From NCBI GenBank assembly GCA_028386065.3, contig JAKUCV010000281.1, positions 78,214-142,213 of the forward strand: a stretch of 64,000 nucleotides of DNA. Reading direction: 5' to 3'. The first letter of the stretch is position 1. The number at the start of each line of letters is the position of its first letter. This DNA is from Turnera subulata (lineage: Eukaryota; Streptophyta; Magnoliopsida; Malpighiales; Passifloraceae). Under the pieces are notes generated by a model. The model did not search any database and had not been told where the DNA came from. It was given only the letters and a program-made list of their open reading frames with translations. The position numbers were made by a program, and so were the translations under genes. Shown piece after piece: positions 11,816 through 41,400 of the stretch.

Positions 11816-12268
11816 TGTGAACACCGATATTTAACCCACGAATTTTCTACTAAAGTTAGAATTTAAACATACTTGAGCTTCGGATTGATGAGAAGATTCA
11901 ATCCTAGGAATAAAACATGTTAAGAACTTAATCTAGTAGAAATAAAATATTTTAGTAATTTGGACCCTTATGTATTTGAATACTAGGATTAATGAGATGA
12001 TTTAAACATAAGATAAAATATATATTAAGGTTTATTAAACTCAAATATGTTTTAGTTCATTGCTTGGGCCTTTTATTTATGTTTAACCCAATTATATTGA
12101 GATGATTTATTTTTTGGTCAAGAATAGATATAGGGGCAAAAGTTAATGGATTATCCAGAGTTTAATTAGCCCACAAACACTTTACTTGCAAACTAATTTT
12201 GGTTCTGATTTTTATGGAAAATTAGAATCAAATCACCCTTCAATTGGTAAATGTATTTTTGGTATGAT

Positions 12269-13763
12269 TGTTAGTGTAATATGCCCAAAAGCCAATCGAT
12301 GGATGTATATTTTGAGTCATGTATACACATTAAGGTTATTCCAATAAGTATCGTTTATGAGATAAACGCTTGCACATACTTATAACCCTAGAATATTTCA
12401 TATTCTTAAATTGTCCCTAGTCGATTATTATTATGGATGGGTTGTAATAATAAATTAAGACTAGCGTATGTTGAGAGTTTATATGTGATATGAATTCAAC
12501 ATACGGGTACAAGTTGGAGAAATTGTGGACTGGACCGACCCACATAAGAATGCTACATGGAACGTTATATGTTTGTCGATAGCGATTCTTATATGTATTG
12601 TCCTTAGACCTGAGATCGTCACATATGAATCGTATACTTTGATATTACTCTTGGCTATTTGGTGAATGAGTAGACTTAGTGTAATCATTGGGTATACGAT
12701 GAGTGTGTAGTGGGTTTTGTATGATCCAGAGGGGATTCGTCCAACCCATATTGGAGGGTTTCTTGATAGAGTTGAACCGTAAATACATGGCCATGCTCGG
12801 ATGATGATATGTGATATCATTGGTATCCGTTTTATCAGTTAACTTGAGGATCAAGAGACCGAGATTAGACATATGCGAGATTGACTTATTCCATGTCTCG
12901 TGTTTAATCTTGATAATGGGACGAAGGGACGATGACATGTTCCGAGGCACATGAAATCAGTATTGATCTCGTCGTTCGGGTAGCAATGATGTGTTGCTAG
13001 ATGTCGCTCTTTGTTTATAATTGTAAAATGAGATTTTACAATTATTGTCGGACGTTACAAGTGCCTACAGGGTCACACACATACAGTCGTTGATTCGAAC
13101 AGGTGGTCGGACCATGGTTGGACCAAGGTGTTGTTAGACTTTGGTTGGACCAGGGTCATTTTTTGGCTGGTTTGGTCAAGTAATTAGCTAAATTATTAGA
13201 CCAACTAGTGCTGAGTTGTGTGTGTTAGTGCTAGTGGGAGACATGATTATGTGTAGATATAATCATGTTGTTTAATGGTCCACTATGTTGGCCATTAAAC
13301 ACCCCTCCATTATGCATCTGATGTATTGAGTGATCAGATCACTATTGATCATTTTCCTCACTTGTCTTGAGAGTTTTTAGAGCTTAAGAAGTGTTTTTGA
13401 GAGGTCTGAAAATTGAGAGAAAACACACACATCTTCTTGGAGAAAGAAGAGAGAAAAATACCACACACAAACCTCCCGGAAATTCTGTTGCTAGCACACC
13501 AGTTCGGGAGAGCTCGGGGTTGAGAACGTGAGACGTCCATCAACCGGTTACAGCGGTTCGTGTGGATACCATAGAGGGGCAAGGCGTTTGTCTGGCTCTT
13601 GCTAGTTCGGCTCTACAGTTGGGTGAAAGACTTCAACCGTTCCAGGTACGAAAAATTGTTATTCGGTTTAGCTCCCTTCACATGGATCCTCCATGTGTTT
13701 CCGGTTTTTCCACTGCGTATTTGTGCATATGAGTGTCATATTTGCATGACCCGAAAACTCGCA
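12269..13763 (+). mobile_element. 5' LTR of the Angela-like element
   Basis: TGTTAGTGTAATATGCCCAA to ...ACTCGCA, about 1.5 kb, followed after one base by the primer binding site. It matches the 3' LTR at 19000-21282 apart from the 733-bp MITE there, and the solo LTR at 39536-41065. Short frames in it are LTR translation, not genes. Confidence 0.93.
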
Positions 13764-13764
13764 A

Positions 13765-13777
13765 TGGTAGCGGAGCC
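13765..13777 (+). other. Primer binding site
   Basis: TGGTAGCGGAGCC lies one base after the LTR end. It is the same variant as in the gypsy and SIRE-like elements of this window. Confidence 0.85.
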
Positions 13778-14052
13778 TCTTGTGAAGTCCTAAACCAAAT
13801 TTTGTGTGTTCATATGTTATATGTGATATAGCTTGAACATGCTAGGCATATGTGATATGTTGTTTTCAATTATGTATATGTGATATATGTGTTGATGTTG
13901 GTGTTTGTGAAAAGAGTTTTGACAACAAGAGCTTGATTGGTATGTGATATCAGTCAAGGTGTTCTTGGCAGTAGGTCGAAAGAGTTCGACTAGGAAAAAC
14001 CGAGAGTCGGTTTATGGATAGAACGATTGTCGTTCTAGTTCCGCAGGGCCAG

Positions 14053-14485
14053 AACATCGATGTTGGTGTGACTAACATCGATGTTCACATGGTGATTGGC
14101 CTTGGCCGAGTCTATTAAACATCTCTTGGCCGAACACTCACAACATCGATGTTTAAGTGTTGAACATCGATATTATTTGAGCTCGGCCAAAATTGGTTTG
14201 AGTTCCAGAACTCCAACAACATCGATGTTCTTGAGTTCTAGAACCTAAAAATTGATGTTTGAATGTTAAACATCGATGTTAAAATGCTACTGCCAAAACT
14301 TGAACTTTTCGAATCTCAACAACATAACATCGATGTTATTTGAGCTCGGCCAAATAGTTTGGAGTTCAAGTTACTCAAAACATGGATGTTTAATTCTTGA
14401 ACATCGATGTTCTTGAGCCTCGGCCAATTAGTTGGGAGAATTAGATTCTCATAACATCGATGTTCCAAACTTGAACATCGATGTT
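14053..14485 (+). repeat. Paired AACATCGATGTT palindromes in the copia leader
   Basis: Twelve or so copies of the 12-bp palindrome, perfect or with one or two changes, mostly as pairs. Start-to-start distance in the pairs is 21 bp (14053/14074, 14453/14474 and others). Between pairs a motif with GAGCTCGGCCAAA recurs. The block lies between primer binding site and gag and is not coding. Confidence 0.93.
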
Positions 14486-15050
14486 CTTATGTATGTTAGT
14501 TTTCAAATTTACATAACATCAATATATGATTTATCAAGAACAAGCATGTGATGTGTAGGAATTATATGTAGATGAAAATATTAAGTTCTTAGTTGTCTTC
14601 CATGGTAAGTACTCATCATTGCTTCGATCAACAATTGGTAGGTTTTGCCAAAGCAAGGTGCCATTGTTTATCTTAGCAAGGTGCGACGCGATAATTGTAA
14701 TATCGGAACTGCTTATTATGGTGTTGGACTTAACTAGGTCATCTTATTAGGATTAAGGACTTAGAGGCAAGGAGTTGAGCAAACTCTATAAGATAGACTA
14801 GAACAAAATGTTGTTCACTCAACTATCCAAGAGTTACATGAGATGTAATTGACAAGATTTGTCTACCTAAATAACTATTGATGTATGCGATCAGCCAAAG
14901 CTGACATATGTTGTAGTGAAATATGGATCTTGGCCTACTTATATAATTGTCTTGATTTATGTAGTAGGAGCACATTTAAACGAATTCCTTATTAAATGTA
15001 TTTGTATATGACTCTTATTTGTGTGAGTTGATCATTGTTGTAGAGTTTCA

Positions 15051-18000
15051 ATGGCACAAAACACTAGCACATTGTCACTACGATCGGTCCTTGAGAAGGA
15101 AAAGTTGAACGGGAATAATTTCCTGAAATGGTATCGTAACTTGAGGATAGTCCTCAAACAAGAAAAGAAACTGTATGTCCTCGAAGGGCCTGTTCCGAGT
15201 GAACCGGCGCCTAGTGCAGCAAGGTCAGAAAGGGATGCTTAGAAGAAGCATCTCGATGATGCATTGGACATTTCATGCCTAATGCTAATCACCATGGACT
15301 CTGAGCTTCAGAAGCAACATGAGAACATGGGGGCGTTCGATATGATCGAACATCTTAAGATGCTCTTTGAGGAGCAAGCAAGGCATGAGAGGTATAAGAC
15401 CTCTAAGGAATTGTTCCAATGCAGAATGGCTGAATCATCTCCCGTCAGACCTCATGTGCTTAAAATGATTGGATACATTGAAAGCCTTGAGGGTCTAGGG
15501 TTTCCTTTGCAAAAGGAGTTGGCCATTGATCTAGTCCTGCAATCGTTGCCGGATAGTTACGGTCAATTTGTCATGAACTTCAATATGAACCATCTTGACT
15601 AGTCCTTGTCTGAGTTGTTCAACATGTTGGGAATAGCTGAGCAACAAATGAAGGCAAGTAAATCCAACAGCATATTGATGCTTGGAGGAGGCAAAGGAAA
15701 GGGTAAAGCTAATGTGAAGAAATCCGCCAAAAAGTTTGGTGCTTCTTCTTCACAAGTGTTGAAACCTAAAGGTGGTGTTGCAAAGGAAGGCCAATGCTTC
15801 CATTGCAAGAAGTCCGGCCATTGGAGACATAACTGCCCGGTTTATCTTCAAGAGTTGAAGAAACAGAAGGGAAGCGAGGCTTCCACTTCAGGTATGTTCG
15901 TTATAGAAGCGAATATCTCTATGTCTGCATCATGGGTATTGGATACCGGATGTAGTTCTCACATTTGTGTAAATATGCAAGAACTAAGAAAGAGTAGGAG
16001 ATTGGCAAAGGGTGAGATAGACCTACGTGTGGGAAATGGAGCAAGAGTTGTTGCATTAGCCGTAGGAACTTACTATCTATCCTTACCGAGTGGTTTGGTT
16101 TTGGAACTAGACAACTGTTATTATGTACCAACCATAAGCATGAATTTGATTTCTGTGTCTTGTCTTGACAAGAAAGGATTTTCATTTGTAATAAAGGACA
16201 ATTCTTGTTCCATTTATTTCAATGATGTTTATTATGGTGGTGCATATTTGAGCAATGGTTTGTATGTTCTAAACCTAGAAACCGCGATCTATAACGTTAA
16301 TATGAAGAAGGTTAGAACGAACGATTCGAATGAAACGTACCTTTGGCATTGTTGTTTAGGCCATGTAAACGAGACTCAAATATCTAAACTCCATAAAGAT
16401 GGACTTTTAGACTCATTTGATTATGAATCGTTTGAGACATGTGAGTCGTGTTTGTAGGAAAAATGACAAAGGCTCCTTTTACCGGTAAGGGTGAGAGAGC
16501 ATCGGACTTGTTAGGTCTTATACATAGTGACGTATGCGGACCTATGTCCACACAGGCTAGAGGCGGTTTTTCATACTTCATTACTTTTACTGATGATTTT
16601 AGTAGATATGGCTATGTGTATCTAATGAGACACAAGTCGGAATCCTTTGAAAAGTTCAAAGAATTCAAGAATGAAGTACAGAATCAACTCGGTAAAAGTA
16701 TTAAGATGCTTCGATCAGAACGAGGAGGTGAATACTTAGACCGAGAATTCCTTGATCATCTAAAGGAGTGTGGTATAGTATCACAGCTCACTCCGCCGGG
16801 TACGCCTCAATGGAATGGTGTATCCAAAAATAGGAAATGAACCTTGTTGGACATGGTTCGTTCGATGATGAGTCAAGCTGACCTTCCTCCTTCATTTTGG
16901 GGACATGCATTATTAAGTGTTGCATTCACACTAAACCGTGTTCCATCAAAATCCGTCGAAAAGACACCATATAAGATATGGACTGGGAAGCGTCCCAATT
17001 TGTCTTTTATGAGAATTTGGGGTTGTGAGGCTTACATGAGACGTGAAGCTTCGGATAATCTCGGCCCCAAATCCGACAAGTGCCTCTTTGTAGGATACCC
17101 TAAGGAAATGAAAGGGTATTATTTCTATAATCCTTTAGAGCACAAAGTGTTTGTTGCTTGGACTGCTATTTTTCTAGAAAGAGAATTTATTTCTAGAAGA
17201 ATCAGTGGAAGGAAAATAAAACTCGAAGAAGTTCAAGAAACAGAGGCTGAGATGGAACAAGGGCAGGAACCACAAGATTTTGTGGATGAGATTCCTGCGC
17301 CTATAACACATGGACCGCGTAGGTCGGATAGGTCTCGGTATGAGCCTGAGAGATATGGATTTCTCATGACTCATACTGGAGACGTGATGCTCATAGAAGA
17401 CGATGAGCCCACTTCCTACCAGCAGGCCATCACGGGTTCGGACTCTAAGAAGTGGCTAGAGGCCATGAATTCGGAAATGGAATCCATGTACGAAAACAAG
17501 GTATGGATCTTGGTTGATCCACCTGAAGGGGTAAAACCCATAGGGTGCAAATGGGTCTTTAAGAGAAAGACCGACATGGATGGTAATGTGATTACCTATA
17601 AAGGGCAATTGGTTGCGAAAGGTTTCAAGCAAGTTCATGGTATTGACTATGATGAAACTTTCTCACAAGTTGCCATGGTTAAATCCATCCGGATTCTGTT
17701 GGCAATAGCGGCATACTATGATTATGAGATATGGCAAATGGATGTCAAAACCGCTTTTCTTAATGGAAATCTTTCAGAGGATGTGTACATGACACAACCC
17801 GAGGGTTTTGTCAATCCAGAGAATGCCAATATGGTATGCAAGTTGCAGAGATCCATTTATGGATAGAAGCAAGCTTCTAGGAGTTAAAATCTTCCTTTCA
17901 ATGATGTAATCAAAGAGTTTGGTTTCATTAAGAACGAAGATGAACCATGTGTTTACAAGAAGGTTAGTGGGAGCACTATTATTTTCTTGTTGTTGTATGT

Positions 18001-18985
18001 TGACGACATCTTGCTCATTAGGAATGATATTCCGACACTACAGTCTGTAAAGGCTTGGTTAGGAAAGAATTTCTCGATGAAGGACTTAGGAGAAGCTGCC
18101 TATGTGTTAGGTATAAAGATCTATAGAGATAGATCGAAAAGGCTTCTCGGGCTAAGTCAGAGTACGTATATTGACAAGGTGCTAAAGAGGTTTAGCATGC
18201 AAGATTCTAAGAAAGGATTCTTGCCCTTGTCAAATGGCATATCTCTCTCAAAGAATCAATGTCCTAGTACATCTAAGGAGAGAGAGCAGATGAGTAAGAT
18301 TCCTTACGCTTCGGCAATAGGATCTATCATGTATGCCATGTTATGTACTAGACCGGATGTCGCTTATGCTTTGAGTGTCACAAGCAGATACCATGCTGAT
18401 CCCGGTGAGAGTCACTGGACAGCGGTAAAGAACATCCTTAAGTACTTGAGAAGGACTAAGGATGCATTCCTGGTTTACGGAAGCGTGGATGAGCTCGTTA
18501 TAAAGGGTTACACCGATGCTAGCTTCCAAACCGATAGGGATGATTTTAGATCGCAGTCAGGTTATGTGTTTTGTCTTGGAGGTGGGGCTGTTAGCTGGAA
18601 GAGTTCAAAGCAAGAGACAGTAGCCGACTCTACAACTGAGGCTGAGTACATTGCTGTCTCAGATGCGGCGAAAGAGGCCGTTTGGATCAAGAAGTTCGTA
18701 ACAGAAATTGGTGTGGTTCCGAGCATCGAGAGTCTGATTGAGCTCTATTGTGACAACAATGGGACAATCGCACTGGCTCAGGAACCGAGATACCACCAGA
18801 GATCCAAACATATACTCCGATGCTATCATCTTATTAGAGAGATCATAGATAGAGGCGATGTCAGCTTGTGCAGAGTTCCTTCGGAGAACAATGTAGCAGA
18901 TCCATTGACTAAGCCACTCACACAGCAGAAGCATGATGGTCATGCTGCGTCCATTGGTATTAGATACATGTATGATTGGCTTTAG
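15051..18985 (+). pseudogene. Ty1/copia gag-pol polyprotein, broken
   Basis: The ATG at 15051 opens a gag of the UBN2 type, followed by CCHC knuckle CFHCKKSGHWRHNC, protease LDTGCSSHIC, the pre-integrase domain (LWHCCLGHVNE), integrase (HSDVCGP, TDDFSRY), reverse transcriptase (VAKGFKQVHGIDYDETF, LLYVDDILLI) and RNase H (YTDASFQTD, ADSTTEAEY), ending YDWL at 18985. Inactivating changes are stops at 15240-15242, 15600-15602, 16838-16840, 17864-17866 and near 17885, and a one-base shift near 16455. The second catalytic Asp of integrase reads Glu (RSERGGEY for the usual RSDRGGEY). All domains remain recognisable, so it is a fairly recent casualty. Confidence 0.95.
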
Positions 18986-18987
18986 CG

Positions 18988-18999
18988 CAAGTGGGAGAT
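18988..18999 (+). other. Polypurine tract
   Basis: CAAGTGGGAGAT directly precedes the 3' LTR, a classic copia arrangement. Confidence 0.85.
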
Positions 19000-21282
19000 T
19001 GTTAGTGTAATATGACCAAAAGCCAATTGATGGATGTATATTTTGAGTCATGTATACACATTAAGGTTATTCCAATAAGTATCGTTTATGAGATAAACGC
19101 TTGCACATACTTATAACCCTAGAATATTTCATATTCTTAAGTTGTCCCTAGTCGATTATTATTATGGATGGGTTGTAATAATAAATTAAGACTAGCGTAT
19201 GTTGAGAGTTTATATGTGATATGAATTCAACATACAGGTACAAGTTGGAGAACTTGTGGACTGGACTGACCCACATAAGAACGCTACATGGAACGTTTTA
19301 TGTTTGTCGATAGCGATTCTTATATGTATTGTCCTTAGACCTAAGATCGTCAAGGTTCCCAACATATGAATTGTATACTTTGATATTACTCTTGGCTATT
19401 TCATAAATGAGTAGACTTTGTGTAATCATTGGGTATACGATGAGTGTGTAGTGGGTTTTGTATGATCCAGAGGGGATTCGTCCAACCCATATAACAGGTA
19501 TATTATCGGAGGGTTTCTTGATAGAGTTGAACCGTAAATGCATGGCCATGCTCGAATGATGATATGTGATATCATTGGTATCCATTTTACCGGTTAACTC
19601 GAGGATCAAGAAACCGAGATTAGTCATATGCGAGATTGACTTATTCCATGTCTCGTGTTTATTCTTGATAATGGGACGAAGGGACAATGACATGTTGAGT
19701 AAATAGTTTTTTATGTCCCTCCACTTTATCGATTTCACATTTATTGTCCCTCTTCGTTTTTTTTCACTCTTGTCGTCCCTCAACTCTTGATTTACCGGGT
19801 CAGGTGGTCCTTTTTACCTGCTGCAACAGGTTAGTAGCTGTGGAGCTGACACGTGGCAGTGGGGCCCATGATCTGCATATTTTTTATTATTTTTATCCAT
19901 TTTTATATTTTTCCAAAAATTTAAGCCTTAAAAATTTTTATATAAATTAAAATTTTTTAGAAAATAAATATTAATTTCAAAATATGCAGTGAGAAAAAAA
20001 TTAAATATGATCATCATCTCACCTAATCCCTCTATAATATTCCGGTTAACGAAATTGAACAAAATTAACAAAAATTAGAACTAAAAAAAAAAACTAAAAC
20101 AATGAGAGGCATATCTAATTCTAACCTATAAATTAAAAAAAAAAACAAACAGTGGAGGATACCAGTATATAATGAGGAAAATTAAGATTTATTAATTTTA
20201 AAGGATTTTAAAAATAAAATTTGATTAAAAAAAATAATCAAATAAATAAGTTGTGTGTGGGCCCCACTGTCACTTGTCAACTCCATAGCTATCAACCTGC
20301 TGTTGCAGGTAAAAAGGACCACGTGACCCGGTAAATCAAGAGTTGAGGGACGACATGAGTGAAAAAAAACGAAGAGGGACAATAAATGCGAAATCGATAA
20401 AGTGGAGGGACAGAAAAAACTATTTACTCATGACATGTTCCGAGGCACGTGGAATCAGTATTGATCTTGTCGTTCGGGTAGCAATGATGTCTTGCTAGAC
20501 GCCGCTCTTTGTTTATAATTGTAAAATGAGATTTTACAATTATTGCCGGATGTTACAAGTGCCTACAGGGTCACACACATATAGTCGTTGATTCGAGCAG
20601 GTGGTTGAACCGTTGTTGGACCATGGTTGGACCAAGGTGTTGTTGGACTGCGGTTGGACCGTGGTTGGACCAGGGTCGTTTTTGGGTTGGTTTGGTCAAG
20701 TAAACAGCTGAATTATTAGACCAACTAGTGTTGAGTTGTGTGTGTTAGTGCTAGTGGGAGACATGATTATGTGTAGACATAATCATGTTTTTTAATGGTC
20801 CACCATGTTGGCCATTAAACACCCCTCCATTATGCATTTGATTTATTGAGTGATCAGATCACTATTGATCATCTTCCTCACTTGTCTTGAGAGTTTTCAG
20901 AGCTTAAGAATTGTTTTTAAGAGGTCTAAAAATTGAGAGCAAACACACACATCTTCTTAGAGAAAGAAGAGAGAAAAACACCACACACAAACCTCCCGGA
21001 AATTCTGTTGCTAGCATACCAGTTCGGGAGAGCTCGGGTTGAGAATGTGAGACGTCCTTCAACCGGTTACAGCGGTTCGTGTGGATACCATAGAGGGGCA
21101 AGGCGTTTGTCTGGCTCTTGCTGGTTTGGCTCTACAGGTGGGTGAAAGACTTCAACCGTTCCAGGTACGAAAAATTGTTATTCGGTTTAGCTCCCTTCAC
21201 ATGGATCCTCCATGTGTTTCCGGTTTTTCCGCTGCGTATTTGTGCATATAAGTGTCATATTTGCATGACCCAGAAACTTACA
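19000..21282 (+). mobile_element. 3' LTR of the Angela-like element, interrupted by a MITE
   Basis: TGTTAGTGTAATATGACC to ...ACTTACA. Removing 19697-20439 (MITE plus one TSD copy) leaves an LTR colinear with 12269-13763. Confidence 0.93.
19697..20429. mobile_element. Mutator-like MITE, 733 bp, 10-bp TSD
   Basis: Ends are GAGTAAATAGTTTTTT and its inverse. The inverted repeats are about 180 bp and highly similar. The flanking duplication ATGACATGTT at 19687-19696 and 20430-20439 is perfect, and the empty site is visible in the 5' LTR at about 12934-12943. TSD of 9-11 bp plus long inverted repeats points to the Mutator superfamily. The interior is AT-rich and non-coding; frames at 19744-19950 and 20182-20382 are the two inverted repeats. 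Confidence 0.92.
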
Positions 21283-21815
21283 ATGATTTTGCTTAATATG
21301 GGAGTAAATGTGTAGTCAATTAGTTTTGGAATGATTTAGAGGAGTAATAATTAAGTAATGGAGTGATTCTGGGTTTATTAGGGGTTGATTACGTGGTAGG
21401 ATCAAATCAAAGCTGAATTAGGGGGATTGGGGTTCGGAAAAGGAAAGAACGGGTGATACGCGGAGTGACAAGCGGTCATTTCGCGATGACTGTCGGGTGT
21501 CGTCAGACATCCACACATGACCGCCGGCCCTGGCGGCCATCAGTGCCCAGAATCCCTGATTTTGCCGATTTTTGTTTCTAATTCAATCCTATGCGGTTTT
21601 GGACTAGATTTTCGGGCATAATCTTCACCATTAAGCAGGTCCATGCATCTAGGCTTCCCAGAATACTATAAATAGGACCCCTCACTCACATTTCAAGAGA
21701 TCAAGCTCTCATTACACACACACCTCATAAGCTTTGTTTGCTTGGAGAAACTCTACTTCTCCAAGCCTAAAAACATTACTATAGGCAGAAACTCTGGAGA
21801 AATTTCATGGGAATG

Positions 21816-26240: not shown

Positions 26241-27596
26241 ACACATATAGGGAGTTAACACGCAGCAGAATCAAATCTGAAACCATCACAGGGTCCTTGT
26301 GAAATGGGATAAATCGAATAGATGAGAATTAGTACCTGTTTTGGTCGAGATCTTTCACTCAACTGTTGAGCTGAATCAGTTTAAAAACCAGACAAAGATT
26401 CTAATTTCTCTAAGGTATCCACACGAACTATTAATCTCCAGGAACCGTCACACGATCACTGGATTGAGCCCTCACAATCTCTCTTCTCACAGTGCTAGCT
26501 ATTTCTAAGAATGAGAGAATAGCTAGGGTTTTCTGTCTACTAATTTTGTGATGTGAAGAACACACTTAAAATCACATATCATCACACATATATAGAGACT
26601 TAAAACCTTGGGTGTATTGGACTAACCCCAATCATATTTGGGTTGTAATTTTTGGGCTTAATAATAAGCTTAACGGGCTTATTATTAGTAATTCAAAAAC
26701 AGGTCCAATAACTTATCCAAACTTTTTCGGACTCACAGCTCAAATTAACAGTCCTAAGTGTACGACCCTGTAGGCTCTAATCACATTAGAAATAATTATA
26801 AAATCACATTTTTAATTATAAATAATGAGCGGTATCTAGCAACACATCACTACTACCCAAGTGACAAGATCAATACCGATTCAACAAGCCTTGTTATTAT
26901 TGTGTCTTTGTCCCTTTGTCCTATAATATCAAGATCAAGCACGAGACATTGAATATGTCATTCTCGCATATGTTTAATCTATGGTTTCTTGAATCCGAGT
27001 TAACTGTCCAAAACAAATACAATTGATATCCCATATCAATCAAGCATTTACAGTTCAACTCTATCAAGGGGCCCAGCAGTTATATTTCCCATTACATGGG
27101 CTAGACAAATTCCATCTTGACCAAACAAATCCCACTACATATTATATTATTTGCCAAACAATAACTCTAATGTCTACCGAGCTACGAGTAACCAAGAATA
27201 ATATCAAAACACATGACTCATATGTTAGAAACCTTGATGATCTTAGGTCGAAGGACAACACTAATAAGAACCACCAATGATAACATGCAATGATCCAGGT
27301 GCTGTTCTTAAGTTGGGTCGGTCCAGTCCACAAGTTTCCTAACTTGTACCCATATGCAGACCTCATATCTCATATGACTCTCAACACAAGCTAGTCTTAA
27401 TTTATTATTACAACCCATCCATAATTGTAATCGACTAGGGACTTTTAGAATATAAAATATTCTTCAGTTATAAATATGTCAAAGCAATCTTCACATATAT
27501 AAATAAATAAATGAACACATTTATCGGAATAAAACCTTAATGACTCTAATAGTAACATAATCATCCAATGATTGGTTTTTGGGCATTACACTAACA
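26241..27596 (-). mobile_element. Copia LTR related to the Angela-like family, diverged and end-truncated
   Basis: On the minus strand it begins TGTTAGTGTAATGCCCAAAA at 27596 and follows the same order of motifs as 12269-13763 (for example TTCGTGTGGATACC and GGTGAAAGA-like blocks). The far end near 26241 lacks the usual ...CTCACA terminus and there is no TSD, so one end was lost. No coding content. Confidence 0.75.
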
Positions 27597-31223: not shown

Positions 31224-32717
31224 TGTTAGAACAATAGCCCTTCGCTAGAGGGGAGGTGAATAGCGATAATCGAATAAAAAACGAAATACGCAGGAATTAA
31301 ATGCGGAATTGAAAGAATGAAGGACACAAAGATTTTTATACTGGTTCACACACAACTAACTTGTGGCTAATCCAGTCCTTCAAGGCTCACTTGAAGAGTT
31401 CACTATCTAGTGTTAAGCTTCCGGGTGCTTAACAAACCGTTTTACAACCTGAGAGTTCAAATCACATGAACCTCAGTACACTTGCTTGAAGATACCTCAC
31501 TTCAAGACTTCCTAGGATTTCTAATCACAAGCTTAAGGATACCACACCTTAAGACTTCTCTCAAGGGAACAATCCTCCCTTATGGTGTATCAATAACACT
31601 TACAATCTCTCAAGCAAAACTCTCTAATAGAGTGGATATGAGTACAACAGAAAGCTCTATTGAACAACTCAGAATTTTCACAAGTTATGGCTCAAAAATT
31701 TGTTGAATGATTTTCAAAGAATGCTTGAATGTATATGGGAGTTGATCAATCTGAAAATGAGGTTTAAGGCCTCTATTTATAGTCTAAAAAGATGCATATA
31801 ATTGTTGGGAACAATTTTTGAAACCTTTATGAAAGTTTAGCATGCTTGTCTGCAAAAGGTTTCTGCCCACAACGGCACAACATCGATGTTTTGTTCAAGA
31901 ACATCGATGTTTAGCCGTTGCATTCAAATAATTGAGCCAATGGCTAGTAAAACATCGATGTTTGTCTGAGCAACATCGACGTTTTCAAATACAACATAGA
32001 TGTTCTCAGAGTAAACATCGATGTTTTTAAGCTTCGCAAAAATCATGTTTGAAAACACTTTGTCACAACATCGATGTTTATAATCCAACATCAATGTTTT
32101 GGTACTTCTGCCAAATTTTGGAAAACCTGAGAATTACACAACATCGATGTTTAAAGTACAACATCGATGTTTTCATACTTCGTAAAAATTTTGGAAAGCT
32201 TTGAAATACACAACATCGATGTTTAAAATGACAACATCGATGTTTTTATACTTCTGTCAAAAATTGGGAAAAGTTTGGAAAACTCAACATCGATGTTCTG
32301 TACACAACATTGATGTTTATTCAAAACAACATCGATGTTGTGGACAGAACATCGATGTTTTTTTTTACTACGGAAAAAAACTTAATAAAACTTAAATGCA
32401 ATAACATCGATGTTGGTTACTAGAACATCGATGTTTAGGACTCAAAAAATTGTTTTATGATATGAATGCATGAAGAAAAATGATTTTTGGTTTGAGCCTT
32501 AACTTGGAGTATTTGAGTTACCATATACAAGGTTTTCTTATATATAAATCCTATATATATCTGCATCCTTGTTGCTTCAAAACTTGTACTCCTTTGTCTT
32601 TAGACTTATGCTTCTTTGATTGGTGTCTTTTTGCTTTAAGGAGTTCATCAATGGAGCTTTGGTTGGTTTGTCATTATCAAAACCCTAAAATGAAACATGG
32701 AAGCATTAGTTCTAACA
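31224..32717 (-). mobile_element. 3' LTR of the SIRE-like derivative
   Basis: Matches 36850-38345 closely over its full length. It contains 18 palindrome sites at 31879-32435. A 74-codon + frame (31482-31706) is repeated exactly in the other LTR; identical LTRs explain that without a gene. Confidence 0.92.
31879..32435 (+). repeat. Paired AACATCGATGTT array in the 3' LTR
   Basis: Eighteen sites in nine pairs; about 14 are perfect and four carry one change (for example TCAATG, TTGATG in the core). Within pairs the spacing is 20-21 bp; pairs lie roughly 40-90 bp apart with ACTTCGTAAAAATTTTGG-like linkers. Confidence 0.95.
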
Positions 32718-32731
32718 ATTTCCCCTTTTTT
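32718..32731 (-). other. Polypurine tract of the SIRE-like derivative
   Basis: Minus-strand AAAAAAGGGGAAAT ends at the 3' LTR start. Confidence 0.85.
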
Positions 32732-32959
32732 GATAATGACAAACTCATGTTAGTATATGCCAAGTTTTATGAGTTCTTAAGGAGATTAATTCCCCCTGTG
32801 TTTTTCAATTTATGATTCCCCCTAACTTGGTGCATATACTTGATTATCTTCTCCCTTTTGTCATTAGCAAAAAGAAACAATAATAAGAAGCATTTTATTG
32901 AATTGAAAGATACTTAAACATGGAAAGACATAAATTTAAACAGAGCAAGGAACAAGAGT

Positions 32960-33199
32960 TTAAAAAGATGGGCTAATGTCATCATCATCATCATTATCAT
33001 CATCATCATCATCCTCTCCATCATTGTTGTCCTCATCACCAGCATCTTCTTCTGGATCATCTTCCTCCATGGGTTGGCTCCCAACGGCTATATTTTTTTT
33101 TTTAAAACTGTAACGTCCAAACATCGATGTTTTTAGCACTCGAAATTTTTTGAAAATCAAGCTCAGAGGTGCAAACATCGATGTTTGGTGTTTGAACAT
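32960..33199 (-). CDS. Acidic C-terminal tail frame, probably a remnant
   Basis: A 79-codon minus frame in the sense direction of the element ends in a run of Asp and Glu encoded by a (CAT/ATC)n tract at 32978-33065. Its first third is translated palindrome array, so the frame as it stands is not a natural protein. Plant transposon-encoded proteins often have such acidic tails; I suspect the last codons of a lost gene of the parent element. Low certainty. Confidence 0.25.
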   Translation of the reverse strand: MFKHQTSMFAPLSLIFKKFRVLKTSMFGRYSFKKKNIAVGSQPMEEDDPEEDAGDEDNNDGEDDDDDDNDDDDDISPSF

Positions 33200-33331
33200 C
33201 GATGTTATAATGAAGAATTTGAAAGACTTACCTGAACATCGATGTTGTGAAAGGCAACATCGATGTTTTCAACACTCTGCCACTTGTGTGATGTATCCAA
33301 CATCGATGTTGGTCAGGGCAACATCGATGTT
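33120..33331 (+). repeat. Paired AACATCGATGTT array upstream of the captured gene
   Basis: Seven sites, six of them as three pairs with 21-bp spacing, all perfect palindromes. It lies between the acidic frame and the promoter of the antisense gene. Confidence 0.93.
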
Positions 33332-33902
33332 GCTCTGTTTGTTTGGTAAGATTCTTACTTGTTCATCCTTGCTGAGTGTCCAAAATGAAGTGTCCCTACA
33401 AGACAAAGTTAATAGAGCCTTGGATGCTCAAATTAGCAATGGATAATACATGAGTTTTATGGAGATGAAACATGTGTGACAATTTCAAGGATAGTAAGAT
33501 AGCCTCACTCGCCAAGAATCATTTTCTTGGATTTCTATCCTCCCGGGATGTGGAGGTCTTCCTTGTTGTAATTGCACCGGGCTCGAGAAGATGTCTTGTC
33601 AGTTGGACTTTGGTTGCCTCTGATGCCCAGCTAACCAGACAGTAAATCCCGTGATGGATCAATAATGCAATTTAGGCCATGATTTTCAACAAAGCAGATG
33701 CTTGGTTCTGAAAAATTGGACGTTAGTAATAAATGAATTTGCAAGTGTCTAAAAAAAATCTTGAAAATCGAGGCAATCTGGAGGGGCCTTCTTCTGAGCG
33801 TTGTTCATGACGCTCCAAGGATAGGTAGGGGTCACCTCCTGAACGCTTCTGGACACTCTAGATAATAGTAGGGGTCACAGAAATGCAATGCAATTGTGTT
33901 TC

Positions 33903-33910
33903 TATAAATA
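33903..33910 (+). promoter_or_regulatory. TATA box of the captured gene
   Basis: TATAAATA about 80 bp before the ATG at 33992, in a good position for a plant core promoter with a short 5' UTR. Confidence 0.6.
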
Positions 33911-33991
33911 GGCATACAGTTAAGCTAATTTAAACACAGAAAATTATAAACCAATTTCTGAAAGAGAGTTAAAAAAAAATCAAAAGCAAGA

Positions 33992-34675
33992 ATGCCTTCC
34001 CCTTCTACTGTCTATTTCGTTGAGGGTGCTGCCGTAGGTAGGAGAAACCGATTAGCCTATAGCATTGTAAGTGAACCGCCTGAGGGGCTGCCTGTTGAAC
34101 TAGGTAGGATGCCTCGCTTAGTGTTTGTTGATGAGCTTTATTCCTCTAGGTTTTTTGTTACACCCATGGAAGAAACTGTATTTCTTGAGAGTCAAAGCCC
34201 ACTTAGAGCATCCTTCTATGGTACCGCCAATGCCACCATGTTCTTCATCTCTAAACGGCTTGAAAGTTTTCAACTGGAGTCTACCCATCAATCCTTAGAG
34301 CAAGGAAGTTATTACCGTCTATCAATGACTGCTCAGAGTGCTGCACAGGCCCCTGGCTTACCACCAACGTGGCCAAAGGTTCGCCTACTAGTGTGGAATT
34401 ACAGAGGAGTCACGAGGCGCTCTGAAGACTTTGCAAGAATGTTGAAAGACCTGAAGAACCAGTACAAGCCCAACATGGTCCTGCTCACCGAGACATTATG
34501 GCAACCTGGCGAAAACCACGGGGTCATCCCTCTTCGTTTTCCATCAGTGAACCGATTTGAAGTCCCTAGCCAGAACAACACGGGTGGAATGTGGTTTGCA
34601 TGGAACGATAGTGTGAGGGTTAATATAGTCAGTGACCCCAATAGCTTCTCTGTAACTGCTGTACCAAATCGTTAG
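33992..34675 (+). CDS. Antisense gene carried by the SIRE-like element; C-terminal endonuclease/exonuclease-like half
   Basis: An intact 227-codon frame runs against the direction of its host element. Residues about 128-220 resemble the beginning of the endonuclease/exonuclease/phosphatase domain of plant LINE-like elements: LLVWNYRGV (usual WNCRG), then KPNMVLLTETLW (the metal-binding Glu of the TET motif is present), and NTGGMWFAWND. The frame stops before the catalytic Asp/His motifs of that fold, so it can hardly be a full nuclease. Residues 1-125 are not recognised. A TATA box lies 80 bp upstream and AATAAA about 70 bp downstream, so it looks like a complete transcription unit. It is flanked on both sides by paired palindrome arrays. 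It could be a real gene or a captured fragment fused to an unknown N-terminus. Confidence 0.6.
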   Translation: MPSPSTVYFVEGAAVGRRNRLAYSIVSEPPEGLPVELGRMPRLVFVDELYSSRFFVTPMEETVFLESQSPLRASFYGTANATMFFISKRLESFQLESTHQSLEQGSYYRLSMTAQSAAQAPGLPPTWPKVRLLVWNYRGVTRRSEDFARMLKDLKNQYKPNMVLLTETLWQPGENHGVIPLRFPSVNRFEVPSQNNTGGMWFAWNDSVRVNIVSDPNSFSVTAVPNR

Positions 34676-34743
34676 GAGCTAGATTATGATAATTGTAATA
34701 AGTATGTTTTAAGTTCCAGTGGCTGTACTTAATCTTTATAATC

Positions 34744-34749
34744 AATAAA
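34744..34749 (+). terminator. Poly(A) signal AATAAA of the captured gene
   Basis: AATAAA lies 69 bp after the stop codon, followed by a T-rich stretch. Confidence 0.5.
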
Positions 34750-34983
34750 AGTATTTATGTTTTCAGCATGTGAGTGACATAAAATTCTTTCATTTGAATG
34801 TTCATCAAACAAGCTAGTGTTTTTCAATTTGATCAATTGTGCACTAACTACTAGCTTAGCTTAATTTGAAAGAAATTTGAATATTCTTCCTGAGACATTT
34901 AGTCATGAACATGCTACCTAAAATTCTTAACTTAAGTGAGAAAATTAACTTATTTCTAAGCTGTGAAAATGCAACAAAGGCAG

Positions 34984-35297
34984 AACTTCGATGTTCAAGA
35001 ATGAGATATTGATGTTTTGACTATTAGACAGAAATTTTAAACAGCTTGGAATGAATAACATCGATATGTAGAAAACGAACATCGACGTTTAAAGACTACT
35101 GGAAAAATATAGTTCTTACCGAACATCGATGTTTGATACAAAACATCGATGTGCATGTTCGATTTATGGCTTGGCATCTCTCATGGGAACATCGATGTTG
35201 GCGATACAACATCGATGTTTTTCAGCTACTGGTTGAAAAACACAAGTGAGCTGAGAAATATGGAACATCGATGTTGCTTATTATGAACATCGATGTT
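34984..35297 (+). repeat. Paired AACATCGATGTT array downstream of the captured gene
   Basis: Ten sites in five pairs with 20-22 bp spacing; several are imperfect (AACTTCGATGTT, GATATTGATGTT, AACATCGATATG). Confidence 0.92.
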
Positions 35298-35369
35298 TTC
35301 ATCTTCTGGTCTGGTTTTGCACTATCACTCAACCTTGCATTTCTATCGAAATCGAACAAGTATGGCCAC

Positions 35370-36794
35370 ATTCAAGAACTTGGATGCTTCTTTGGTCATT
35401 TGCTTGGAGCATCCGCAATCAAGGTACCAAAGTACACTTGATGCCTTCAAGCATACCTGCCAAACAAATCAAAAGGATTTTGGTACCCAAATCTTTTTGG
35501 GTCCTTGAGAGTGAGTAGATGCATGCTGATAATGAGCTTCTTGTTGTGCCCAATGCCTATGCCTAGAAAAACATACCGGGGCAATGTGTCCTATCCTATT
35601 ACAATAGTGACAAATAACATTAGGATTATGCATCCTCCTTGGTTGATAATAGTTGCCATATTGCCTATGTTTATGCACTCTATTATACTTGTCTTCCTTA
35701 GGTATAACCCTGTTTTTCCTAGGTTGAGCTATGTGTGTCCTAGGTTTAGTGTAATGAGATTTTTCATTCCTACCATTGTAGGCATACATTTTAGCATAGT
35801 GAGCTCTTCCACTACTTGCATTTGGTTTGGCATTTTGAGCATATGACCTTCTATGATGAATGTGTGATCTCCTATCATGAACATGTGATCTAGTATGATG
35901 AATAGAAGATGAAACACCATGTTTATGTGTCTTAGCATTAAGCACAGTAGGTTTGACATCATTTGACATATTAGATGCACCTAATCCTTCTTTCTGTGTT
36001 GGACTTCTTTGTTGTCCTAGGAGAAGATTAAGACTATCTCTACCATTTGTAAATTTCTCTAATGTTTTCTTCAAATCATCAACGTGATACTTAAGAGATT
36101 CATTCTCTTTTCCTAATTCAACACAAGCACATACATTTGAGGATATCTTCTCATTAAGTTCATTGCAAGATATATTAAGAGCATGTTTTTCTTTTTCAAG
36201 CTTATCAATTTTACTTGATAACTCATCCTTATCACTTGATAATTTCTCATTATCTTTTTCTAAGGTTGTAATTTGTTTCTTTAAATTCTTATTGACCTTA
36301 GAAACTGAAATGAATTTACTATATACTTCACTAAATGCATCTTGCAGCTCTTCAAATGTATAATCATCACTCGAATAGGAAGTACTTACCTGTTCCGGAG
36401 ATTCTTCCTTTGCCATGAAACAAAGGTTGACAGTCTCATCTTGCTTGCTGTCGGTTTCCTCATAGATGGTTCCCAACATTTCCCACATCTCCTTGGCTAT
36501 TGCGCAGCGCGAGATTATTTGATAGTCATTCGGATTGACCTCACATTGGAGCATGTGTATTGCCTTGGAGTTGTTTTCGATTCTCTGGATGTCATCTTCG
36601 TTGTACCCCGCTTCCGTCCTTGTTGGAACTTGAACACCATTCTTTATCACCAGTCAAGCTGCGAAATTATTGGCTTGGAAGAAAATTCTCATCCTTTCCT
36701 TCCAATATGCGTAATTTGTCCCGTCAAAGAACGGTGCACGGGTAGTGGATTGTCCTTCAGCGATTCCTGCATACAAATAACTTGAAGAAGCCAT
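35370..36794 (-). pseudogene. SIRE-like gag and protease remnant
   Basis: The ATG at 36794 opens gag (SSYLYAGIAEG, FFDGTNYAYWKERM), interrupted by one TGA at 36656-36654 at a place where Trp is usual. The frame then continues to 35469 with a coiled-coil region rich in Lys, Glu and Leu (about 36330-36060), a His/Arg-rich stretch and a CCHC knuckle CHYCNRIGHIAPVC near 35620-35580, ending KKIWVPKSF. In another frame just beyond, WYLDCGCSKQMT at about 35425-35390 is the copia protease motif, with Cys for the usual Ser. Nothing of integrase or RT follows. Gag would bind element RNA and form particles; this copy is nearly intact. Confidence 0.9.
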
Positions 36795-36834
36795 AGAAAA
36801 TTTCTCTCAAACGGTTAAGTCTTTCAGAGAGTTA

Positions 36835-36847
36835 GGCTCCGCTACCA
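36835..36847 (-). other. Primer binding site
   Basis: Minus TGGTAGCGGAGCC two bases after the 5' LTR. Confidence 0.85.
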
Positions 36848-36849
36848 AT

Positions 36850-38345
36850 TGTTAGAACAATATCCCTTCGCTAGAGGGGGGGTGAATAGCGATAATCGAA
36901 TAAAAAACGAAATACGCAGGAATTAAATGCGGAATTGAAAGAATGAAGGACACAACGATTTTTATACTGGTTCACACACAACTAACTTGTGGCTAATCCA
37001 GTCCTTCAAGGCTCACTTGAAGAGTTCACTATCTAGTGTTAAGCTTCCGGGTGCTTAACAAACCGTTTTACAACCTGAGAGTTCAAATCACATGAACCTC
37101 AGTACACTTGCTTGAAGATACCTCACTTCAAGACTTCCTAGGATTTCTAATCACAAGCTTAAGGATACCACACCTTAAGACTTCTCTCAAGGGAACAATC
37201 CTCCCTTATGGTGTATCAATAACACTTACAATCTCTCAAGCAAAACTCTCTAATAGAGTGGATATGAGTACAACAGAAAGCTCTATTGAACAACTCAGAA
37301 TTTTCACAAGTTATGGCTCAAAAATTTGTTGAATGATTTTCAAAGAATGCTTGAAAGTATATGGGAGTTGATCAATCTGAAAATGAGGTTTAAGGCCTCT
37401 ATTTATAGTCTAAAAAGATGCATATAATTGTTGGGAACAATTTTTGAAACCTTTATGAAAGTTTAGCATGCTTGTCTGAAAAAGGTTTCTGCCCACAACG
37501 GCACAACATCGATGTTTTGTTCAAGAACATCGATGTTTAGCCGTTGCATTCAAATAATTGAGCCAACGGCTAGTAAAACATCGATGTTTGTCTGAGCAAC
37601 ATCGATGTTTTCAAATACAACATCGATGTTCTCAGAGTAAACATCGATGTTTTTAAGCTTCGCAAAAATCATGTTTGAAAACACTTTGTCACAACATCGA
37701 TGTTTATAATCCAACATCGATGTTTTGGTACTTCTGCCAAATTTTGAAAAACCTGAGAATTACACAACATCGATATTTAAAGTACAACATCGATGTTTTC
37801 ATACTTCGTAAAAATTTTGGAAAGCTTTGAAAGACACAACATCGATGTTTAAAATGACAACATCGATGTTTTTATACTTCTATCAAAAATTGGGAAAAGT
37901 TTAGAAAACTCAACATCGATGTTCTGTACACAACATCGATGCTTATTCAAAACAACATCGATGTTGTGGACAGAACATCGATGTTTTTTTTTACTACGGC
38001 AAAAAACTTAATAAAACTTAAATGCAATAACATCGATGTTGGTTACTACAACATCGATGTTTAGGACTCAAAAAATTGTTTTATGATATGAATGCATGAA
38101 GAAAAATGATTTTTGGTTTGAGCCTTAACTTGGAGTATTTGAGTTACCATATACAAGGATTTCTTATATATAAATCCTATATATATATCTGCATCCTTGT
38201 TGCTTCAAAACTTGTACTCCTTTGTCTTTAGACTTATGCTTCTTTGATTGGTGTCTTTTTGCTTCAAGGAGTTCATCAATGGAGCTTTGGTTGGTTTGTC
38301 ATTATCAAAACCCTGAAATGAAACTTGGAAGCATTAGTTCTAACA
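36850..38345 (-). mobile_element. 5' LTR of the SIRE-like derivative
   Basis: About 1.5 kb and nearly identical to 31224-32717, which suggests a recent insertion. TATATAAATCC near 38166 lies in the U3 part on the + strand only by chance of palindromic AT sequence; I do not assign a promoter. Confidence 0.92.
37505..38061 (+). repeat. Paired AACATCGATGTT array in the 5' LTR
   Basis: Eighteen sites in nine pairs, 16 perfect; the two changed sites (GATATT, GATGCT) are perfect in the other LTR, and the four changed there are perfect here. Confidence 0.95.
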
Positions 38346-38448: not shown

Positions 38449-41400
38449 TGTGAGAACCCGACCTAAAATCAGTTGGGCCTTCTCACCTATTCCTTTTCAC
38501 CTTCTTCCTCGGGTCAATCTCATTTCAATGGAGTCGCCACCCAAATTTTATTAAGGACAAAATTTAGGAAAAACCTTTGTATGACTCCTTTAGGCAACAT
38601 GATCATAGCGAACCAATGACATGTGATTGGGGGTTCGTCACGGATGGGAAGGTGTTAGGCACCCATCCATGTTGGGTCAGAACCTTATGCAATTGAAGAG
38701 TACGAGTGTGCCTTGTGCAGTTGTGCAAATGTGGAAAATAAAAGAAAAGAGAAGAAGAAGAAGATTTGGCTTACATCCCATTGTAAAATCGAGACTACCT
38801 ACGTGCCCGAGTGACCGGGGTCAAAGCCACATAGTTCTAAACATGGCATTAAGTCGCCACTTACATCATCAAAAGCGTCCTTATATAGTCAGCAAAAATA
38901 AAACAAAAAGGGTTTAGTGTTACCTATTGTAGCCTTCCTCTAGCTCCTTGTGTTGGGTTGTGTTCTTCACCCACCTTCTTGTCATTTCTTAGCTCAATGG
39001 TTAATCCCCTTCTTGATTCCTCATTTTTGGACTATTGCTGATGCTTCCCACAGAAATTCTCCAGAGTTTCTACTTAAGAATATATCCCAAAGGTTGGAGA
39101 GGCAGAGTTTCTCCAAGCAGCAAAGCTTATGAGTGTATATGTGAATAATAATGTGTGTGTCCTCTGAAATGTAAGTGAAGGGTCCTATTTATAGTGCTTT
39201 GGGAAGCCTAGGAGCGTGTACCTGCTTAATGGTGAAGATTATGCCGGAAAATCTGGTCCAAAACCGCTTAGGATCGATTTAGAGACAAAAATCGAAAACA
39301 TCGGAGAATATGGGCACTGGTGATCGCCATCTGCTGGATGACCACCAGGGCCGGCGGTCATCTGTGGATGTCCGCCGGCACCCAGCGGTCATCGCGAGAG
39401 GACCGCTGGTCGCCCCGCGTGTCACCCATTCTTTCCTTTTTCGAACCCAAATCCCCCTAATTCAGCTCTGGTTTGATCCTACCGCATAATCAAACCCCTA
39501 ATCAACCTAGAATCACTCCATTACTTGATTATTACTGTTAGTGTAATATGCCCAAAAGCCAATCAATTGATGTTTATTTGTAGTCATGTATACACATTAA
39601 TGTTATTCCAATAAGTATCGTTTATGAGATAAACGCTTGCACATACTTATAACCCTAGAATATTTCATATTCTTAAATTGTCCCTAGTCGATTATTATTA
39701 TGGATGGGTTGTAATAATAAATTAAGACTAGCGTATGTTGAGAGTTTATATGTGATATGAATTCAACATACAGGTACAAGTTGGAGAACTTGTGGACTGT
39801 ACCGACCCACATAAGAACGCTACATGGAACGTTATATGTTTGTCGATGGCGGTTCTTATATGTATTGTCCTTAGACCTGAGATCGTCAAGGTTCCCAACA
39901 TATGAATCATATACTTTGATATTACTCTTGGCTATTTCGTAAATGAGTAGATTTAGTGTAATCATTGGGTATACGATGAATATGTAGTGGGTTTTGTATG
40001 ATCAAGACGGGATTCGTCCAACCCATATAACGGGTATATTATCGGATGGTTTCTTGATAGAGTTGAACTGTAAATGCATGGCCATGCTCAGATGATGATA
40101 TGTGATATCATTGGTATCTGTCTTTACCGGTTAACTCGAGGATCGAGAAACCGAGATTAAACATATGCGAGATTGACATATTCCATGTCTCGTGTTTAAT
40201 CTTGATAATGGGACGAAGGGACGATGACAAGTTCCGAGGCACATGGAATCAGTATCGATCTTGTCGTTCGGGTGGCAATGATGTGTTGCTAGACCCCGCT
40301 CTTTGCTTATAATTGTAAAATGAGATTTTACGATTATTGACGGACGTTACAAGTGCCTACAGGGTCACACACTTACAGCCGTTGATTCGAGCAGGTGGTT
40401 GAACTGTGGTTGGACCACGGTTCGACCAAGGTGTGGTTGGACCGCAGTTGGACTGTGGTTGGACCAGGGTCATTTTTGGGCTGGTTTGGATCAATTATAG
40501 TCAGAATAATTGAACAAACTAGTGCTGTGATGTGTTGTTAGTGTTAGTGGGAGACATGATTATGTGGAGACATAATCATGGTGGATTATGGGCCAATGTG
40601 TTGGCCACAATCCCATTGTCTCCTTGCACTAATTGGGGGTAAGAGTAATCAGATTACTCTTGATCTTTTGAGCCCTCTCTTTCTGAGTTTTCAGAGTTTG
40701 AGCATACACATACACACCTTCTTCATTCTTTGAGAAAGAAAGAAGAAACCAAACACCACACAGCTCCCAGAAATTCTGTTGCTAGCACACCAGTTCGGGA
40801 GAGATCGGGTTGAGGATCGTGAGACGTCCTTCAGTCAGTTACAATGGTTCGTGTGGATACCGTTGAGGGGCGAGGCTTACGTCTGGCTCTTGCTGGTTCG
40901 GTTCTATAGTTGGGTGAAAGACCTCAACCGTTACAGGTATGTAAAAATTGTTATTCGATTTAGCTCCCTTCACTTGGATCCTCCATGTGTATCCGGTATT
41001 TCCGTTGCGCACCTTGTTGTATTTTGTTGCTTTTGATTGTCAATTGCATGAACCGAATACTCACAATTACTCCTCTAAATCATTCCATAACTTATTGATC
41101 ACACATTAACACCCATTTTAAGCAAAAACATACAAAAAAACACAAAATCTAATTAAAAGATGACTTAACTCTGATTTTCTATGAAAATCAGAGCTAAAAT
41201 TAACTTGCAAGAAATGCGTTAGTGGGCTTATTAAAATCTGGATAATCCTCATTTCATTAACTTGGGCCCCTAATTTTATTCCTAACCTAAAAGAGAATCA
41301 TCTCATCATAATTGGGTTGAAACTAAACAAGAAAGCCCAAATAATAAAATAAAACATATTTTAGTTTAATAAACCTTAGTATATATTTTATTCTAAGATT

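Follow-up and report, generated by a model that had tools for sequence, protein, structure and literature searches.

Near-helically spaced arrays of a 12-bp palindrome in two copia lineages of Turnera subulata as putative lattices for a DNA-binding protein

A 64,000-bp stretch of the Turnera subulata genome (contig JAKUCV010000281.1, positions 78,214 to 142,213; hereafter the window) carries two copia elements, a Sirevirus-like element on the minus strand (element A, 38345 to 31224, 7122 bp) and a second element with a broken gag-pol on the plus strand (element B, 12269-21282), and both contain arrays of the 12-bp palindrome AACATCGATGTT. The palindrome is nearly invariant, the spacers between its copies drift, and neighbouring copies mostly lie close to whole turns of B-DNA apart, in these two elements and across the host genome. 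We therefore propose, with a probability that we put at roughly two in three, that the arrays are cis-regulatory lattices for one putative sequence-specific, probably homodimeric DNA-binding protein.

Exact copies of AACATCGATGTT number 51 in the window, against a mean of 0.01 and a maximum of 1 in 100 dinucleotide shuffles, and sites at up to 2 mismatches number 66, nearly all of them inside elements A and B. The original prediction, made from the window alone, had described about 53 copies of one perfect palindrome in four blocks of a single element. Between 31879 and 38061 we find 52 sites at up to 2 mismatches, which bears out the number but not the perfection, since 42 are exact and 10 imperfect. 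The coordinates of the four blocks (31879-32435, 33120-33331, 34984-35297 and 37505-38061) were correct; they hold 18, 7, 9 and 18 sites, of which 14, 7, 5 and 16 are exact. The predicted start-to-start spacing of 20-22 bp was also found, in 11/17, 3/6, 4/8 and 11/17 of the neighbouring intervals, respectively. However, the outer two blocks are one array seen in both long terminal repeats (LTRs) of a single insertion, and a fifth array, at 14053-14485 in element B (12 sites, 9 exact), had been overlooked. The palindrome arrays are confirmed: they exceed chance by a wide margin and are more widespread than first noted.

We scanned the host genome (518,689,335 bp in 7125 contigs) with the reversed pattern as control. 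A 400-amino-acid stretch of one phytochrome-E-like exon in this genome shares 84-88% identity with named sequences of Rhizophora, Carya and Forsythia, and up to 89% with unnamed ones, which makes the host most likely a eudicot. Exact AACATCGATGTT occurs 76,101 times, against 63 for the control. The genome-wide count of pairs, a check that had been suggested with the original prediction, gave 30,184 exact pairs 20-22 bp apart (control 15) against 98 pairs 23-29 bp apart (control 0), and the 20-22 bp peak is present outside the first family, in the second lineage. Among 50 listed of the 98 pairs, most sit at the limits of this range, 21 of them at 23 bp and 14 at 29 bp, and 15 lie at 25-28 bp. 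The wider class of 23-52 bp comprises 21,289 pairs (control 8); the 50 listed, some of which are not nearest neighbours, include none at 23-29, 4 at 30-33, 2 at 39, 23 at 42-44, none at 45-49 and 21 at 50-52 bp. Pairs 34-39 bp apart number 855 (control 0), and those 53-82 bp apart, non-neighbours included, 46,008 (control 10).

Random windows (18 loci, 168,951 bp) contained 7 exact sites, all in one locus; being too clumped for array sampling, they were replaced by loci around single-variant pairs. The resulting sample of 22 genomic loci and 4 window arrays, in which loci L003-L005 are uncounted as they overlap L002, yielded 344 neighbouring intervals. The histogram drops the 21 intervals that had served for locus choice and, like the tally of site variants, excludes window array winA3 as a repeat of winA5; its 323 intervals peak at 20-22, 30-33, 42-44, 51-54 and 73-75 bp. 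The fit to the helical repeat uses all 344 intervals, 95% of which deviate from a multiple of 10.5 by at most 2 bp, as do 90% of the 156 above 24 bp, where 48% would be expected. When spacers longer than 24 bp were grouped by similarity they formed 10 unrelated clusters, the median lengths of which best fit a period of 10.5 within the range 6-16.

The sites themselves vary little. Of 372 sampled sites, 256 are exact, the commonest change being CpG transitions (28) and the next commonest a change of the outermost base; C-G swaps among the variants are inflated by locus choice. The inner A/T positions 4, 5, 8 and 9 are changed in 4, 2, 8 and 2 sites, respectively. Variant palindromes with ACATCGATGT cores and G/C flanks (GACATCGATGTC, AACATCGATGTCC) also occur between canonical sites, for example at C33:161459-161521 and C15:29967-30044.

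Divergence between elements was compared in 9 disjoint element pairs, each alignment column being counted as site if either copy carried a site at up to 2 mismatches there. Substitutions affect 117/1614 site positions (7.2%), 565/2292 spacer positions (24.7%) and 1252/10077 flank positions (12.4%), so array spacers diverge faster than flanks; sites changed less than spacers in 9/9 pairs and less than flanks in 8/9. This either-copy rule is relied on because two earlier counting rules were biased. A count that required both copies to be recognizable sites tilts towards conservation, while a one-sided rule based on the exact sites of one copy gave 49/1077 for sites and 539/2507 for spacers over 10 pairs (L043 being used twice), and its apparent difference on the LTR pair of element A (1/168 against 12/389) is an artefact of the rule.

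The LTRs of element A, which should have started out identical when it inserted, are 98.4% identical over 1498 columns in self-BLAST; their 22 changes fall on 6/216 site, 7/341 spacer and 9/939 flank positions. In this one insertion, therefore, the sites show no protection after insertion, and part of the 7.2% site divergence between elements is post-insertion decay. Protection between elements but not between the LTRs of A implies that the constraint acts on the replicating element. Two refutations had been named with the original prediction, and neither was borne out. The 20-22 bp peak is not confined to the one family, and the palindromes, which might have mutated as fast as the spacers, change more slowly in all nine element pairs, though equally fast inside the single insertion.

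The original prediction had read the arrays as the target of a cooperative DNA-binding protein, with pairing or dimerization of the RNA as an equal alternative. The features on which the protein reading rests, a fixed site, a drifting spacer and a near-constant phase, extend genome-wide and beyond one family. Several observations nevertheless weigh against it. A 73-74 bp tandem repeat forms part of each LTR and leader array, and because arrays grow partly by duplication of this unit, the intervals are not independent and many spacings share ancestry. The 10.5-bp periodicity accordingly reaches p ∼0.03 on the 10 clusters, or 0.016 on 14 cluster-by-class units, and the best-fitting period for the 174 distinct spacers before grouping is 10.75 rather than 10.5. 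Of the 50 listed pairs 34-39 bp apart, 48 are triplets: they span 39 bp and enclose a third site, which splits them into a 21-bp and an 18-bp pair and which is exact in 45 and carries 1-2 changes in 3. Plain spacings of 35 and 37 bp account for just 2. The triplet with the 18-bp pair, mostly of one recurring type, is a true exception to the phasing. Single off-phase spacings of 46, 47, 49, 57, 58 (twice) and 68 bp also occur, and in the pair L025-L028 the sites are no better kept than the flanks (8.3% against 7.5%). The recurring 21+18 bp triplet, ∼3 bp off helical phase, can be seen for example at C251:31310-31381 and C23:17019-17090.

The alternative that survives best, though we consider it unlikely, is an ordinary minisatellite, in which a 73-bp unit holding two of the 12-mers spreads by unequal exchange or template switching, so that spacings copy the founder and likeness reflects homogenization, not selection. 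Tandem Repeats Finder indeed finds a unit of 73 bp (3.5 copies, 79% matches) together with units of 20-21 bp in the LTR arrays of A, and units of 74 and 21 bp in B, and 101/104 linkers of 49-58 bp chain into a single similarity cluster. Homogenization should however keep spacers as alike as sites, which the 24.7% and 7.2% divergence contradict, and it predicts no fixed relation among the unrelated spacers of 30-33, 40-47 and 49-58 bp (4, 9 and 3 clusters). Spacer length also looks steadier than flank length at 30-50% divergence, with shifts of at least 3 bp in 11% of 79 aligned spacers and 35% of 20 flank segments, although this comparison is small and pseudo-replicated and the mean change is reversed at 10-20% divergence (5.4 bp in spacers, 3.0 bp in flanks).

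A role of the sites in RNA, whereby neighbouring sites form 12-bp hairpins, dimerize genomic RNAs for packaging or feed small RNAs, appears distinctly improbable. Every two sites are complementary, and the palindrome-rich LTR regions of maize Sireviruses are described as small-RNA hotspots in the available sections of PMC10760457 and PMC5311732. The strong dyad symmetry that we had suspected by eye in the linkers turned out to be weak in the long ones (z of 1.8, 2.6 and 2.2 in three classes, and 3.4 in 4 others). Against pairing, 186 site pairs contain 2 compensated and 120 uncompensated variant positions, the palindrome is kept in 0/12 double-variant sites, and for the one transversion tested genome-wide there are 72 single-variant pairs and 0 compensated doubles; nor would B-DNA phasing be expected for an RNA. 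RNA-hairpin function was accordingly rejected as the main explanation for lack of compensation, and the RNA pairing first put forward is not supported, while small RNAs may be produced as a side effect. The lack of compensation by the partner site speaks for the sequence itself being recognized, as double-stranded DNA. Marginally less probable again is a purely structural effect on chromatin, with phased AA/TT and central CG steps positioning or excluding nucleosomes without a specific protein. Spacings close to multiples of 10.5 and the superperiod of 73-74 bp would suit it (73.5 being half of 147), but what nucleosomes prefer is a periodicity of dinucleotides, which would not call for a nearly invariant 12-mer whose inner A/T positions are so rarely changed.

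Returning to the binding-lattice proposal, each AACATCGATGTT, a fixed 12-mer, would be a full binding site. Neighbouring sites are mostly 2, 3, 4, 5 or 7 turns of B-DNA apart, and because these spacings are whole turns, bound dimers would share one face of the helix, where they could contact each other. In the Sirevirus-like lineage the lattice occupies the first half of the LTR and stops ∼108 bp short of the TATA box, where an upstream activating region would lie, and the internal domain holds extra copies; in the second copia lineage it lies in the leader past the primer binding site and may serve there as a downstream enhancer or help to open the chromatin. An element that keeps its lattice would be transcribed and copied, while an inserted copy decays freely, as seen in the one insertion. 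The lattice was probably passed between lineages as a module of ∼73 bp, a suggestion based on residual similarity of the linkers. The binder could be a host factor or an element-encoded anti-silencer. For everything past constrained, phased DNA sites, we infer the mechanism. The fuller proposal, that one trans-acting protein reads a helically phased lattice which travelled as a module from one copia lineage to another, giving unrelated elements a common activation or anti-silencing system, is more tentative, and we would put it as possible but doubtful.

The arrays differ in position between the two lineages. Arrays in A-like LTRs were found in 10/22 loci (L002, L024, L026, L027, L033, L035, L036, L037, L039 and L043, L002 being placed here by its 90.6% match to L026) and B-type leader arrays in 6/22 (L029, L030, L031, L034, L040 and L042); in 3/22 (L025, L028 and L032) the array lies just past pieces resembling reverse transcriptase (RT), and 3/22 (L006, L038 and L041) are without a clean array position. 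Where RT-like pieces lie close to A-type or linker arrays, most share 33-38% identity with the RT frames of B. A TATA box lies 106-109 bp past the start of the last site in 9/12 A-type LTR sequences, two of them the pair of element A, and the TATA pattern has no match in the other 3/12. In B-type sequences the first site lies 259-321 bp past the primer binding site in 5 and 442 bp past it in one, with no match to the primer-binding-site pattern in 2/8.

Linkers of B resemble those of A, with a mean best local score of 13.4 (31 B linkers compared with 76 A linkers) against 11.0 for reversed B linkers, 10.9 for shuffled B linkers and 10.9 for non-array DNA of A, and the word CTGCCAA occurs in 8/76 A linkers and 8/31 B linkers. 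This likeness would reflect either a unit exchanged between the lineages or a second common site in the linker. Words of the CAACGGTCA type, which we take to resemble the mitosis-specific MYB3R element, recur in class A linkers, for example in L002, L026, L033, L037 and L039, AACGGTC being present in 9/76.

The 5′ LTR of element A (36850-38345, minus strand; 1496 bp, TGTTAG...CTAACA) was delimited by self-BLAST with inspection of its ends and junction, and the 3′ LTR (31224-32717, minus strand; 1494 bp) by self-BLAST. The 5-bp flanks, CATAT and CATAA, are alike at 4/5 positions, on which ground a perfect target duplication was rejected. The array at 37505-38061 occupies positions 285-841 of the 5′ LTR and has its counterpart at 31879-32435 in the 3′ LTR; in the LTR of A the observed/expected CpG ratio is 1.57 within the array and 0.34 in the remainder. 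The TATA box CTATAAATAG (37399-37408, minus strand) lies 108 bp beyond the point where the array's last site starts, with a copy at 31773-31782 in the 3′ LTR. Of the internal arrays, that at 34984-35297 lies ∼170 bp downstream of the gag frame and that at 33120-33331, all 7 of whose sites are exact, ∼390 bp upstream of the polypurine tract (32718-32731, minus strand), which adjoins the 3′ LTR, a 17-bp inverted repeat spanning the junction.

The gag open frame of A (35469-36653, minus strand; 394 amino acids) matches Retrotran_gag_2 with an E-value of 1.6e-5, below the curated cut-off, and has 7 weak homologues, the top one by E-value at 31% identity. A Pfam profile search of the frames of A found no pol. 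The strand opposite gag carries, at 33962-34675 (plus), an open frame of 237 amino acids that matches no Pfam family even at an E-value of 1 and that we take to resemble a plant LINE endonuclease; since it reads this way, the internal domain of A, where pol is missing, may carry a foreign fragment.

Element B is flanked by the target duplication ATGAT (12264-12268 and 21283-21287). Self-BLAST defined its 5′ LTR (12269-13763, plus strand; 1495 bp), which contains no exact palindrome, and its 3′ LTR (19000-21282, plus strand), which has an interruption of ∼730 bp. The first site of the leader array at 14053-14485 lies 288 bp past the start of the primer binding site. The broken gag-pol frames (15243-18985, plus strand), searched as separate pieces, match the Pfam families Retrotran_gag_2, gag_pre-integrs, SH3_retrovirus and RVT_2. 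LTR-like copies akin to the LTR of B at 39530-41067 (plus strand, 83%) and 26738-27596 (minus strand, 72-75%) suggest nested or rearranged B-type insertions.

Both elements have the primer binding site TGGTAGCGGAGCC, at 13765-13777 (plus strand) by sequence match in B and within 36835-36849 (minus strand) in A, where inspection of the junction shows ATTGG followed by the primer binding site TAGCGGAGCC. The site in A differs from TATCAGAGC, the Sirevirus site for initiator-Met tRNA, yet matches tRNA-like ends in the host. The host has 32 matches to a pattern for initiator-Met-like tRNA ends, which from the plant consensus we take to be initiator-Met genes; 28 end in CTCCGCTA and 4 in CTCTGCTA, and the canonical end CTCTGATA was found in 0/32, though the pattern permitted it. 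The acceptor stem of the host initiator tRNA may thus have changed, with both copia lineages following.

By the sequence marks tested, element A is Sirevirus-like and B is not. The 5′ junction of A, CTAACA/ATTGGTAGCGGAGCC, has the Sirevirus form CA/ATTGG exactly, whereas that of B is CGCA/ATGGTAGC, one base shorter, as is the junction TTACA/GTGGTAGC of the further 5 B-type loci in which a primer site was matched. At the C-rich integrase signal, expected ∼21 bp before the LTR end, A has CCCCCCC at 26 bp in the 5′ LTR and CACCTCCC at 27 bp in the 3′ LTR, and B has only CCCC, 458 bp from the LTR end. The inverted repeat at the junction of polypurine tract and 3′ LTR has perfect 17-bp arms in A, 10 bp before and 35 bp inside the LTR, while the best in B is 9 bp. 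The exact polypurine octamer AGGGGGAG, which in Sireviruses lies ∼10 bp before the 3′ LTR and has several copies in the linker, is absent from A, which has the variant AGGGG[AG]A from 9 bp ahead of its 3′ LTR and 3 further copies upstream.

The closest known counterpart of the arrays is the palindromic repeated motif (RM) of Sireviruses. The original prediction knew of no described plant LTR with such an array, but the available sections of Bousios 2010 (PMC2829016) describe element-specific RMs in 13 Sireviruses, at 8-32 copies per element and with diverged flanking sequence. These mostly occupy the upper half of the LTR, from 200-400 bp in and over 300-500 bp, ahead of the TATA box, and form CpG islands in most elements; env-bearing elements have further copies in the internal domain, before the env-like gene. 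Element A is alike in LTR position (18 sites at 285-841 of 1496, TATA at 938), CpG richness, downstream TATA box and internal copies. It lacks the CGG-CCG core of RMs and has ATCGAT instead, like the published exception Tnd-1 of tobacco, whose RM ACAATCGATTGT (8 copies, ATCGAT-centred) is the closest published to AACATCGATGTT; as RMs are recorded from 13 Sireviruses, the CGG-CCG core is not required for the genus. Apart from this core, A differs in having 18 sites per LTR and 16 internal ones, and the host motif also occurs in a lineage without the Sirevirus marks tested, whereas the same sections call the RM Sirevirus-specific and absent from classic copia elements. They report no common binding factor for RMs, and 'helical' appears in them once, in the title of a cited work; our literature searches returned no account of helical spacing in arrays of this kind. 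Searches for AACATCGATGTT gave matches on other subjects only, nothing relevant was among the matches listed for CATCGATG with plant transcription factors, and in a scan of IMG/VR for the palindrome pair the only match was one pair within an open frame of one contig, which we regard as unrelated.

Sirevirus palindromes have thus been known since 2010, and what is new is the near-helical, quantized spacing, the extreme copy number and the motif in a second copia lineage. With spacing close to helical units, a TATA box at an almost constant distance and a second lineage that carries the motif, a role that was 'possibly regulatory' becomes a claim open to testing, namely one protein on full sites along the same helix face, for which AACATCGATGTT is directly usable as bait. 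If it is true, the ∼76,000 sites would rank among the most multiplied binding-site systems in a plant genome. That two lineages share the motif is relevant to the question of whether transposons recruit factors of the host or borrow anti-silencers from one another.

Two other systems invite comparison. In maize Sireviruses the sections available of PMC10760457 describe CACCGGACNNNGTCCGGTG palindromes that, as here, cluster in Copia LTRs, and that are also reported in Helitrons; they differ in sequence and are discussed as giving rise to secondary structure and small RNAs. The closest mechanistic analogue, as far as the likeness goes, is the set of VANC target motifs of the Arabidopsis VANDAL transposons (PMC5735166, PMC10398659, in the sections available), where a short motif is likewise tandemly multiplied in non-coding parts of a transposon and where VANC6 motifs also occur in the unrelated transposable element AT9TSD1, much as the palindrome is shared across lineages here. 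VANDAL differs in that the binder is known and element-encoded, and in that the VANC21 motif, YAGTATTAY, is not palindromic.

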